Positions 39,732 through 43,048 of a stretch of 64,000 bases of DNA are shown here, in pieces. The notes beneath the pieces were generated by a model. That model was not told where the DNA came from and made no database searches. It saw only the letters and a list, made by a program, of their open reading frames with translations. A program made the translations under genes and the position numbers. Source of the stretch: Oscillospiraceae bacterium (lineage in GTDB: Bacteria; Bacillota; Clostridia; Oscillospirales; Ruminococcaceae); NCBI GenBank assembly GCA_017427265.1, contig JAFRTG010000003.1:20808-84807 (forward strand), written 5' to 3'. Each line of letters starts with the position of its first letter. The first letter of the stretch is position 1.

Positions 39732-41105
39732 ATGTCTGAAAATCAGCTGAACAGCAAGGTCGTCAAATTCGGCGGAAGCAGTCTTGCCGACGCCGGCCAG
39801 TTTGAAAAGGTCAAGGCAATCATCACCGCCGATCCGGCGCGCCGCTACGTGGTGCCCTCTGCACCGGGCAAACGCTATTCCGATGATATCAAGATCACCG
39901 ATCTGCTGTATACCTGCCAGAAGCTCGCGGAAACCGGCAAGGATTTTTCCGAGCCGCTCTCCAAAATCCGCTCCCGTTATCTGGAAATCGCCAAGGCGCT
40001 CGGCCTGAGCTTTGACCCGACCGACGAGCTCGACCGCATCGCATACCGCCTGAAGGAAGGCGCAACCAAGGATTTCGCGGCAAGCCGCGGCGAATATCTG
40101 AACGGTATGCTGCTCGCAGATTACCTCGGCTTCCCGTTCATTGATGCAGCAGATGTCATCTGCTTCAATGAAAACGGCGTGCTGCAGATGACCGAAACCA
40201 TGATGCTCCTGCGTGAAAAGCTCACAGAGGTCGAAAACGCGGTCATTCCCGGCTTCTACGGCTCCGGCCCGAACGGTGAGATCATCACCTTCTCCCGCGG
40301 CGGCTCCGATATCACCGGTTCGCTGGTTGCAAGAGCAGTCCGCGCCGAAATATACGAGAACTGGACGGATGTTTCCGGCGTACTCGTTGCCGACCCGCGC
40401 ATCGTCAAGGATGCTGCTGTCATCAACACAATTACATATGAGGAGCTGCGTGAGCTCTCTTATATGGGCGCGACCGTTCTGCATGAGGATGCGATCTTCC
40501 CCGTCCGTGCAGCCGGCATCCCGATCAACATTCGCAACACGAATGATCCCTCCGCCCCCGGCACGCTGATCGTTGCCGGCGACAGTGCCGATTCCGATGC
40601 ACAGACCGGCTACACAATCACCGGTATTGCCGGAAAGAAGGGCTTCTGCGCGATCAATATTCAGAAAGCAATGATGAATGCAGAGCTTGGCTTCTGCCGC
40701 AAGGTGCTGACCGTTCTGGAGGAAATGAGCATCAACTTTGAGCATATGCCCTCCGGCATCGACACCATGTCGATCATTCTCGCAGAGGATGAAATCAAGG
40801 GCAGAGAAAAGACTGTGCTCTCCCGCATCCGCAAGGCCGTTGAACCGGATGTCTGCGAGCTGGAGCACGGAATCTCCCTGCTGGCTGTTGTGGGACGCGG
40901 TATGCGCAGAACCCGCGGTACGGCTGCACGTATCTTTGCTGCGCTTGCACATGCACGCATCAATGTCAAAATGATCGACCAGGGTTCCAGTGAGCTGAAC
41001 ATCATCATCGGCCTGCTGGACGGCGACTTTGAGGAAGCTGTCCGCCGAATCTATGCGATGTTCGTCAACAGCACACTGACTGACGACGATGCAGAGGAAG
41101 CATAA
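39732..41105 (+). CDS. lysC: Aspartate kinase
   Basis: A 457-residue kinase that makes aspartyl phosphate for lysine, threonine and methionine. The kinase domain opens with VVKFGGSSLADAGQF and contains SRGGSDITGSLVA. Two C-terminal ACT-type domains (about residues 310-457) include INIQKAMMNAELGFCRKV and INVKMIDQGSSELNII, giving feedback control. It is single-gene, with its own promoter and a terminator on the plus strand. Allosteric sensitivity cannot be read reliably. Confidence 0.94.
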   Translation: MSENQLNSKVVKFGGSSLADAGQFEKVKAIITADPARRYVVPSAPGKRYSDDIKITDLLYTCQKLAETGKDFSEPLSKIRSRYLEIAKALGLSFDPTDELDRIAYRLKEGATKDFAASRGEYLNGMLLADYLGFPFIDAADVICFNENGVLQMTETMMLLREKLTEVENAVIPGFYGSGPNGEIITFSRGGSDITGSLVARAVRAEIYENWTDVSGVLVADPRIVKDAAVINTITYEELRELSYMGATVLHEDAIFPVRAAGIPINIRNTNDPSAPGTLIVAGDSADSDAQTGYTITGIAGKKGFCAINIQKAMMNAELGFCRKVLTVLEEMSINFEHMPSGIDTMSIILAEDEIKGREKTVLSRIRKAVEPDVCELEHGISLLAVVGRGMRRTRGTAARIFAALAHARINVKMIDQGSSELNIIIGLLDGDFEEAVRRIYAMFVNSTLTDDDAEEA

Positions 41106-41160
41106 ACGGTATCTCTGACGGAATAACAGCAGGAACTTTGTCCCCATTATGAATACAAAA

Positions 41161-41192
41161 AAAGGCGCTGATTTCACCAGTCAGCGCCTTTT
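41161..41192 (+). terminator. Terminator of aspartate kinase gene
   Basis: A GC-rich stem (41162-41171 with 41181-41190) followed by T-rich sequence. Confidence 0.88.
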
Positions 41193-41212: not shown

Positions 41213-41244
41213 AAAAAAAATACCCCGTTCCACAGTGAACGGGG
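41213..41244 (-). terminator. Terminator of the minus-strand small RNA
   Basis: On the minus strand, stem 41244-41237 with 41230-41223, a six-base loop, then TA and eight T (41220-41213). Confidence 0.9.
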
Positions 41245-41416
41245 AAGTTCTCTCTGCAAAAACAGAGAATCCAGATTTACCATAAGCAGACATGCACCGA
41301 TATCTGCTCCTCTTGGGGGAGAGGTTTCTGTGTTTGGGGTTTAAGGGAAGGGATTGCGTGTGCTGCATCTTGGGGGAGAAGCAGCCGTTTTCTGCAATCC
41401 TGAAATCCGGTTTCCG
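41213..41416 (-). ncRNA. Candidate small RNA with two identical C-rich loops, family not recognised
   Basis: About 200 bases run from a near-consensus promoter (41423-41451) to an intrinsic terminator, both on the minus strand, with no plausible gene. Five hairpins are visible. The first is 41394-41400 with 41351-41357, enclosing GCTGC/GCAGC and a C-rich loop. The others are 41324-41309, 41306-41286, 41268-41251 and the terminator. The 12-base sequence TCTCCCCCAAGA occurs twice (41379-41368 and 41322-41311), each in a loop. C-rich loops that can pair with Shine-Dalgarno sequences are known in Firmicute regulatory RNAs such as RsaE/RoxS; this RNA was not assigned to a family. Confidence 0.65.
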
Positions 41417-41422
41417 TTATCT

Positions 41423-41451
41423 ATGATACCTGATTTCGCCTTTTTTTTCAA
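41423..41451 (-). promoter_or_regulatory. Promoter of the minus-strand small RNA
   Basis: On the minus strand, TTGAAA (41451-41446), a 17-base spacer and TATCAT (41428-41423), each one base from consensus. Confidence 0.75.
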
Positions 41452-41549: not shown

Positions 41550-42944
41550 TTAATACTTGATCTTATCGTTCAGATAAGCAACCAGTTCCGTAATCGGAAT
41601 GCGAACCTGCTCCATCGTGTCGCGGTCGCGGACGGTCACGCAGTTGTCGCTCTCTGCGGTATCAAAATCATAGGTCACGCAGAACGGCGTACCGATTTCA
41701 TCCTCACGGCGATAGCGCTTGCCGATCGAACCGGTATCGTCGAAATCGACCATGAAGTGCTGCGAGAGCATATCGTAAACCTCGCGTGCCTTCTCGGAGA
41801 GCTTCTTGGAAAGCGGCAGCACGGCGCACTTGAACGGCGCAAGCATCGGGTGGAAGTGCATAACGGTACGCACATCCTCCTTGCCCTTGTCGTCGGTGCC
41901 GAGCACTTCGGTATCATAAGCCTCTGTCAGCACCGAGAGGAACAGTCTCTCAACACCGAGCGACGGCTCAATGACATACGGAATATAGCGCTCGTTGGTC
42001 TCCGGATCGAAGTAATCGAGTGTCTTGCCGGAGGTGTTGCTGTGCTGTGTGAGGTCGTAGTCGGTTCTGTCGGCCACGCCCCAGAGCTCGCCCCAGCCGA
42101 ACGGGAACAGATACTCAAAGTCCGTTGTTGCCTTGGAATAGAAGCAGAGCTCCTCGGCAGAGTGATCGCGCAGGCGGAGATTCTCCTCCTTCAGGCCGAT
42201 CTTCAGCAGGAAGTCCTTGCAGTAGCCGCGCCAGTACTGGAACCACTCCAGATCCGTGCCGGGCTTGCAGAAGAACTCAAGCTCCATCTGCTCGAACTCA
42301 CGCACGCGGAAGATAAAGTTGCCGGGCGTGATCTCATTGCGGAAGGATTTTCCGATCTGGCCGACGCCGAACGGAATCTTGCGGCGGGTCGTGCGCTGAA
42401 TATTCGCAAAGTTCACGAAGATGCCCTGTGCGGTTTCCGGACGGAGATACAGCTCGGATTTGCTGTCCTCGGTGACGCCCTGGAAGGTCTTGAACATCAG
42501 GTTGAACTGGCGGATATCGGTGAAATTCGCCTTGCCGCAGTTCGGACAGACGATACCCTTCTCCTTGATATAGTCAGTCATCTGCTGATTCGTCCAGCCG
42601 GCAACATTCGTGCCGTCAAAGTCCTCGATCAGATTGTCTGCGCGGTGACGGGTCTTGCACTCGCGGCAGTCCATCAGCGGATCCGAAAAGCCGCCGAGGT
42701 GACCGGAGGCAACCCATGTCTGCGGGTTCATGAGGATAGCGCTGTCCAGACCGACATTGTGCGGATTGGCCTGCACAAAGAAATGCCACCATGCCTTTTT
42801 GATATTGTTCTTCAGCTCAACACCGAGCGGACCGTAATCCCATGTATTTGCAAGGCCGCCGTAGATTTCAGAGCCTGCATATACAAAGCCGCGCCCCTGA
42901 CACAGTGCGACGAGCTGATCCATTTGCTTGTCCGTATTTTTCAT
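41550..42944 (-). CDS. glyS: Glycine--tRNA ligase, single-chain alpha2 type
   Basis: A 464-residue class II synthetase of the homodimeric type. Motif parts are [58 protein letters not shown] (motif 2) and a C-terminal anticodon domain with [21 protein letters not shown]. Zinc-ligand Cys are in CRECKTRH and CPNCGK. The start is ATG 42944 after AAAGGCGG; the frame upstream to 43025 overlaps the promoter. The leader is only about 27 bases, so no T-box control is visible. Confidence 0.95.
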
Positions 42945-42977
42945 GCGAAAACCGCCTTTCCATAATTTGCACCTTAT

Positions 42978-43006
42978 ATTATAAACGAGAAGCGGAAAAA
43001 AGTCAA
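42978..43006 (-). promoter_or_regulatory. Promoter of glyS
   Basis: On the minus strand, TTGACT (43006-43001), a 17-base spacer and TATAAT (42983-42978). Confidence 0.85.
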
Positions 43007-43048
43007 GTGTTATCCGCAAAAACATGCCTTGGCCGATCCCAAAAGATC

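Follow-up and report, generated by a model that had tools for sequence, protein, structure and literature searches.

Small RNAs derived from mRNA leaders are known as a class, and to our knowledge the change of such an RNA into an independent gene has seldom been seen. Among the RNAs compared below, RNAIII also encodes a peptide. The genus analyzed here presents the attached, detached, gene-only and empty states of one leader side by side, and the comparison of close relatives can address whether a leader acted in trans before its release. If the reading preferred below is true, the RNA would be a candidate regulator in fibre-degrading gut Ruminococcus.

Vsr217 of Vibrio has been described as a small RNA from the malK 5' UTR with roles both in cis and in trans (PMC8265627). 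The locus analyzed here resembles it in that the RNA comes from the leader of a sugar-utilisation gene; however, the Vibrio RNA lies within the malK 5' UTR, whereas the Ruminococcus RNA stands alone, with the gene gone or elsewhere, and its trans role is hypothetical. Rli51 of Listeria is described as the mpl leader, which contains a terminator/antiterminator and is released as a trans-acting small RNA (PMC11394854). It is likewise the leader of an enzyme mRNA in a Firmicute, although it still stands in front of mpl, and the two were compared by description rather than by sequence. In Staphylococcus aureus, the C-rich hairpin loops of RNAIII pair with the ribosome-binding sites of proven targets (PMC2837412). 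A C-rich hairpin loop that could pair with ribosome-binding sites is also present here, but as one conserved C5 loop with putative targets. The VirR promoters of Clostridium perfringens have, upstream of the -35 box, two imperfect direct repeats separated by 7-8 nt (PMC2838878). The conserved block at the -35 box of our locus may also contain two direct repeats; unlike the VirR sites, these are 9-mers 12 bp apart, and the block overlaps the -35 box.

The window (the whole stretch of 64,000 nucleotides that was analyzed) contains a putative RNA of ∼203 nt on the minus strand, running from 41415 to 41213, with a promoter before it and a terminator with a T8 tail after it (Table 1). The flanking genes, at 41550-43025 (minus) and 39732-41105 (plus, convergent), have the Pfam domains tRNA-synt_2b/HGTP_anticodon and AA_kinase/ACT, respectively, and we take them to be glyS and an aspartate kinase gene. 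A terminator-like stem of glyS (41543-41514) sets that gene apart from the RNA. Between the small RNA and the aspartate kinase gene, an inverted repeat with T-runs was observed at 41154-41188, which may be a shared terminator. The promoter and the eight-T terminator that an earlier note on this DNA had read from the sequence were both present, the latter with the stem CCCCGTTCACTGTGGAACGGGG at 41244-41223; the start site of the RNA was deduced from its spacing to the -10 box. The same scan yielded 2 promoter-like sites in 2.5 kb where 1.3 were expected, so the promoter match alone is little proof. That the note could not assign the RNA to a known family agreed with the search of the whole window against Rfam 15, in which only four tRNAs reached the gathering score. 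Of 19 permissive matches in the region, the best was to anti-hemB, at 27.3 bits (gathering score, 49.5; E 0.00019 for 411 bases), and it was taken as chance.

Table 1. Features of the putative small RNA locus in the window.
Feature	Position	Strand	Basis or remark
Conserved operator-like block TCAGCATTTCAATATCATATATCATTGAAA	41446..41475	minus	upstream of and overlapping the -35 box
Promoter TTGAAA-17-TATCAT	41423..41451	minus	motif scan; aligns in relatives
RNA 5' end GGAAACCGGATT	41404..41415	minus	invariant in 5/5 glyS-locus copies
Hairpin 1, CCCCCA apical loop	41351..41400	minus	fold and compensatory changes among relatives
C-rich linker CTTCCCTTAAACCCCAAACACAGAAA	41325..41350	minus	unpaired in MFE fold
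Hairpin 2 CCTCTCCCCCAAGAGG, holding the second TCTCCCCCAAGA	41309..41324	minus	fold; 12-mer search
Hairpin 3, matching the terminator stem of the sisters but lacking its T-run	41286..41307	minus	comparison with L002-L005
Hairpin 4, window copy only	41251..41268	minus	fold; no counterpart in sisters
Intrinsic terminator, 8-bp stem then TATTTTTTTT	41213..41244	minus	scan

Five hairpins in a gene of about 200 bases had been proposed, and the MFE fold gave five local hairpins together with one long-range helix. For a 208-nt stretch, the MFE was -67.1 kcal/mol, against a mean of -50.1 for shuffled sequences (sd 4.35, z -3.9, 0/200 as low). Within the 64 kb there are exactly two copies of the 12-mer TCTCCCCCAAGA, at 41368-41379 (hairpin 1) and 41311-41322 (hairpin 2); when one mismatch was allowed, the same two sites only were found, where 0.28 were expected, and two or more turned up in 3 of 100 shuffles. 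The proposal that the 12-mer appears twice in hairpin loops was thus correct as to the two copies and needs narrowing as to the loops: each copy is a hairpin tip UCU-CCCCCA-AGA, in which the ends pair and only CCCCCA stays open. The two C-rich loops are identical in the window, but this identity is not kept in four sister species, where hairpin 2 reads CCTCTCCCCAAGAGG (G020, G024), CCTCTCTGCGCAGAGG (G003) or CCTCATGCACGAGG (G025), and the second C-rich loop is absent from G003 and G025. Hairpin 3 is followed by a T-run in the sisters, which the window has lost, and the two hairpins 3' of it in the window have no counterpart in the sisters. From one sister to another, the terminator stem changes on both sides (GCAGATACC/GGTATCTG, GCAGGTGC/GCGCCTGC). 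The C-rich linker of the window is ∼16-20 bases shorter than theirs, as counted by eye.

When 60 relatives were searched by BLASTN, a similar stretch was found behind glyS in these four genomes of the genus, and the same promoter, GGAAACCGGATT and hairpin were found ahead of genes with signal-peptide-like starts in other genomes; the element is absent from the matches L007, L008, L009 and L011. A strict RNA pattern matched once in each of 16 of the 30 genus genomes, and a looser pattern with part of the promoter located promoter, GGAAACCGGATT (or a near variant) and hairpin 1 in 22 of the 30. The looser pattern also gave a second match in G013, lacking the GGAAACCGG block and probably due to chance, and listed one place doubly in G027 and G019. 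The element is the leader of a lyase gene in 15 genomes, solo behind glyS in 5 and solo at an rpoD site in 2; a further 3 have the lyase and its promoter without the element, and 5 have neither. Beyond the genus, 6 of 396 sampled family genomes had matches, of which 5 were in the genus and the sixth (G340) has CCCC instead of CCCCC. In a collection of named genomes, 18 records matched, 8 of them labelled Ruminococcus sp., 7 Oscillospiraceae bacterium, 2 Clostridia bacterium and 1 Clostridiales bacterium, a count that may omit the genome of the window. All 18 are metagenome-assembled; where the isolate name reveals a source, it is sheep, horse, roe deer, pig or water buffalo.

In the 15 leader genomes, the element forms the 5' leader of a gene for a secreted CBM77-pectate lyase-dockerin protein of ∼800 aa; the domains (CBM77, Pectate_lyase_4 and a dockerin at 22.2 bits against a curated cut-off of 22.9) were assigned from the one protein scanned. 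A protein search independent of the RNA detected an orthologue of this lyase, with at least 64% identity, in 19 of the 30 genomes, some of the orthologues being in pieces or cut at contig ends. The element lies in the leader in 15 of these 19, with small variants of GGAAACCGGATT in three (G008, G010 and G027), whereas G005, G012, G022 and G028 keep the lyase promoter region with no element upstream of the gene. Second lyase copies were seen in G008 (L081, G008:C116, 67% identical to the query) and G023 (L082, G023:C60, 62%), the latter with an in-frame TGA. In several lyase leaders (L006, L059, L064, L065, L068 and L072), the C5 hairpin is followed within a few bases by a pyrimidine tract resembling CCCTTTTT, possibly a weak attenuator.

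The protein search found no lyase orthologue in the five glyS-locus genomes, only a paralogue of 36-39% identity. Among the 20 of 28 loci in which the 330 bases behind glyS were viewed, the element was present in these five genomes only. In G011 and G028, it stands alone between a sigma-factor-like gene and rpoD (names read off the translations), at the place where L097 and L048 have the lyase; the two loci, L100 and L099, were assigned to G011 and G028 by identical match coordinates and sequence. The G028 genome carries its lyase elsewhere, with the promoter and with a leader shrunk to the mini-palindrome GCCGGATTCCGGC (L063), and its rpoD site retains a complete solo element preceded by a separate promoter. 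The absence of the lyase from G011 is uncertain, as this genome is 75% complete. Neither element nor lyase was found in G006, G009, G015, G016 and G017, of which 4 of 5 are less than 90% complete. Promoter, 5' block and hairpin of the putative small RNA are homologous to those of the lyase leader, as expected of a leader-derived RNA; on these comparisons, the homology of the window copy to the lyase leader and the reality of its first hairpin are well supported.

Hairpin 1 was compared among 22 distinct copies chosen by CATTG, GGAAACCG and CCCCC, which are invariant among them because the copies were selected by these letters. Nearly all of them fold with the C run in or near the hairpin loop, on stems that are very different. 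The pattern searches demanded the C run, but the C-rich apical loop is conserved also in the copies found by BLASTN (L002-L006, L017-L021) and in the 15 of 19 lyase leaders that contain the element. Because stem lengths differ too widely for MAFFT alignments, pairing was tested by swapping 3' arms among 17 representatives of less than 75% identity. The mean pairing was -30.8 kcal/mol with the own arm and -20.1 with swapped arms (sd 1.15, 0/10000 permutations); one representative, G019 (L056), was miscut at a C5 that lies earlier, within the stem, and this error weakens the value given here. The evidence for compensatory change around the C5 loop is strong within this comparison of sequences. 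The earlier note had named homologous helices lacking such changes as a refutation; for hairpin 1 the changes are present, and the prediction of a small-RNA gene now has a promoter, a terminator, homologues and a covarying hairpin 1 on its side.

These results also bear on the idea that a promoter merely precedes a chance hairpin behind glyS and that the conservation reflects DNA operator sites. The survival of the promoter region where the RNA element has been lost would fit such a reading, but the arms of the hairpin covary, and G005, G012 and G022 lost GGAAACCGGATT along with the hairpin; we regard this idea as very improbable. As the promoter stays in these three genomes, an RNA role of GGAAACCGGATT is favoured over a role as a DNA operator.

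The order of events was read from a nucleotide tree of glyS, built from 26 of 28 sequences (two of less than 700 bases were omitted; G002 and G023 are represented by one of two pieces each; G021 and G026 gave no glyS match). The glyS-locus solo genomes formed one clade with support of 94/91, just under the starred level of the tool, which was recovered in 93% of bootstrap trees, and the rpoD-site solo genomes formed a separate clade (100/99). Both are nested among leader genomes, and the deepest branches have the leader state under a midpoint root that served for drawing only. The simplest reading of this tree is an ancestor with the lyase leader, from which leader and gene came apart on two occasions.

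Whether the solo copies have been under selection was judged from identities along the locus. The rpoD-site solo pair shares 92% identity in RNA positions 1-65 (97% when gap columns are left out), compared with 75% from -140 to -75, 76% (89%) in the promoter region and 62% (82%) from +65 to +130; in more distant sequence it rises again to 83-90% on both sides. In the glyS group without the window, RNA 66-160 is 72-100% identical, against 47-53% from +261; for the whole group, the upstream spacer is 57-92% and the glyS fourfold sites are 68-94% identical (59-92% and 69-94% without the window). The window copy is 64-73% identical to the others in RNA 1-65, which in 2 of 4 comparisons is less than the spacer and the fourfold sites show, and 51-58% in RNA 66-160, near the downstream sequence (48-52%); some of its C-rich linker is gone. 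For four other solo copies, taken without their terminators, the MFE z values were weak (-0.29, -0.91, -2.37 and -0.96), and in the G028 solo piece the C5 hairpin is missing from the MFE structure, with the tip kept in the centroid. Taken together, the results support a structured RNA, but selection on its solo copies only to a moderate degree.

We tentatively prefer, and are nearly as ready to accept as to doubt, the reading that the small-RNA gene is an orphaned lyase mRNA leader with its own promoter, which was kept after the parting and probably acts in trans. The leader, with its own promoter, would have served the secreted pectate lyase gene first and would later have been separated from it and retained alone. 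The solo RNA would be transcribed, presumably under the control that once served the lyase. Its C5 loop, together with the C-rich linker at the glyS locus, may pair with G-rich ribosome-binding sites of other mRNAs, and this pairing, possibly with Hfq, would lower their translation. On this reading, the leader may already have acted in trans before it parted from the lyase.

The competing view limits the leader to a cis effect on the lyase mRNA, such as that of a 5' stabiliser or an attenuator, and takes the solo copies to be inert relics with a promoter. That 15 copies precede the lyase, that several leaders have a CCCTTTTT-like, attenuator-like tract soon after the hairpin, that the target searches found none, and that the window copy is diverging while conservation in the glyS group is only modestly above its surroundings all agree with it. 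However, promoter, 5' block and C5 hairpin are kept in 7 solo species, the rpoD-site pair is more alike in RNA 1-65 than in the near flanks, the hairpin pairing persists in solo copies, and the glyS-locus copies have their own terminator or T-run; we consider the cis-only view doubtful, though a serious contender. With less assurance than the preferred reading as such, it is also possible that the leader was already trans-acting while attached to the lyase, that the lyase was lost or moved in two lineages independently, and that selection kept promoter and leader as a free RNA. The glyS-locus RNA would then carry its own terminator and extra C-rich pairing segments, and the separated RNA of G028 may now be a trans regulator of the lyase that moved elsewhere in that genome.

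The operator-like block, TCAGTTNTTC..ATCATTGAAA, was found with up to 3 mismatches once in each of 18 of the 30 genus genomes, and it contains two 9-mers starting with TCA. This search missed a further, weaker copy of the block, which lies before the relocated lyase in G028. The two 9-mers resemble the consensus of LytTR-type (AgrA/VirR) sites, as a candidate likeness only; VR-RNA is a VirR-regulated RNA. No regulon was found in these searches, in which both the block (18 genomes) and the strict RNA pattern (16 genomes) matched once per genome.

The earlier note had further suggested that the loops bind Shine-Dalgarno sequences and repress many mRNAs, and this part found no backing in the pairing searches. 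The 10-base loop complement occurred outside its own locus 2, 0, 1, 0 and 1 times in G000, G020, G024, G003 and G025; the reversed control occurred once in each. In four solo genomes, the loop complement followed by ATG occurred 3, 3, 3 and 2 times, and its reversed control 2, 4, 6 and 3 times, so there was no enrichment. Among the 11 matches of the complement, 5 begin real-looking genes, 3 of them with signal-peptide-like starts; judged by eye, none of the five genes appeared orthologous and no shared target was evident.

Pairing of the loop with the ribosome site of its own lyase averaged -9.9 over 15 genomes (a mean that includes the miscut L053), compared with -5.3 inside the coding region. 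Coevolution of loop and lyase site was not detected when 13 tips were swapped (L053, miscut in the same way as L056, and L052, whose tip duplicates L046, were omitted): own pairs gave -9.8 and permuted pairs -10.3, with 9865 of 10000 permutations at or below the own value. The value for 49 generic GGAGG sites, -8.6, is only slightly weaker than that for the own lyase sites. These values do not speak for a dedicated cis switch between loop and lyase ribosome site, as swapped pairs were stronger and generic sites nearly equal. The site of the separated lyase in G028, TTTTTGGGGAGG, pairs with the G028 solo loop at -15.0; its pairing with 13 other tips ranges from -9.6 to -17.7, so the strong value is not particular to G028.

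Alternatively, the C5 hairpin may be a protein-binding site, and the solo RNA a decoy that titrates an RNA-binding protein of other mRNAs. A loop that stays C-rich on a freely varying stem is what would be expected of a recognised loop on a structural support. Nevertheless, the patterns applied here locate a single copy of the element per genome, so the glyS-locus genomes have no second leader of this kind with which it could compete, and we think a decoy unlikely.

Hfq was found in 29 of the 30 genomes. Two individual sites were also observed. In G025, the ribosome site of a secreted-looking protein, TTGGGGGAGAAGATTATG (L150, ∼position 1500; G025:C39:20413-20422, minus), contains a perfect 10-base complement of the loop region of the G025 solo RNA. 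In the genome of the window, TTGGGGGA (L165, G000:C34:153154-153171) stands before the start codon of a secreted-looking protein that resembles a GH95-type glycosidase, a name read off the translation.
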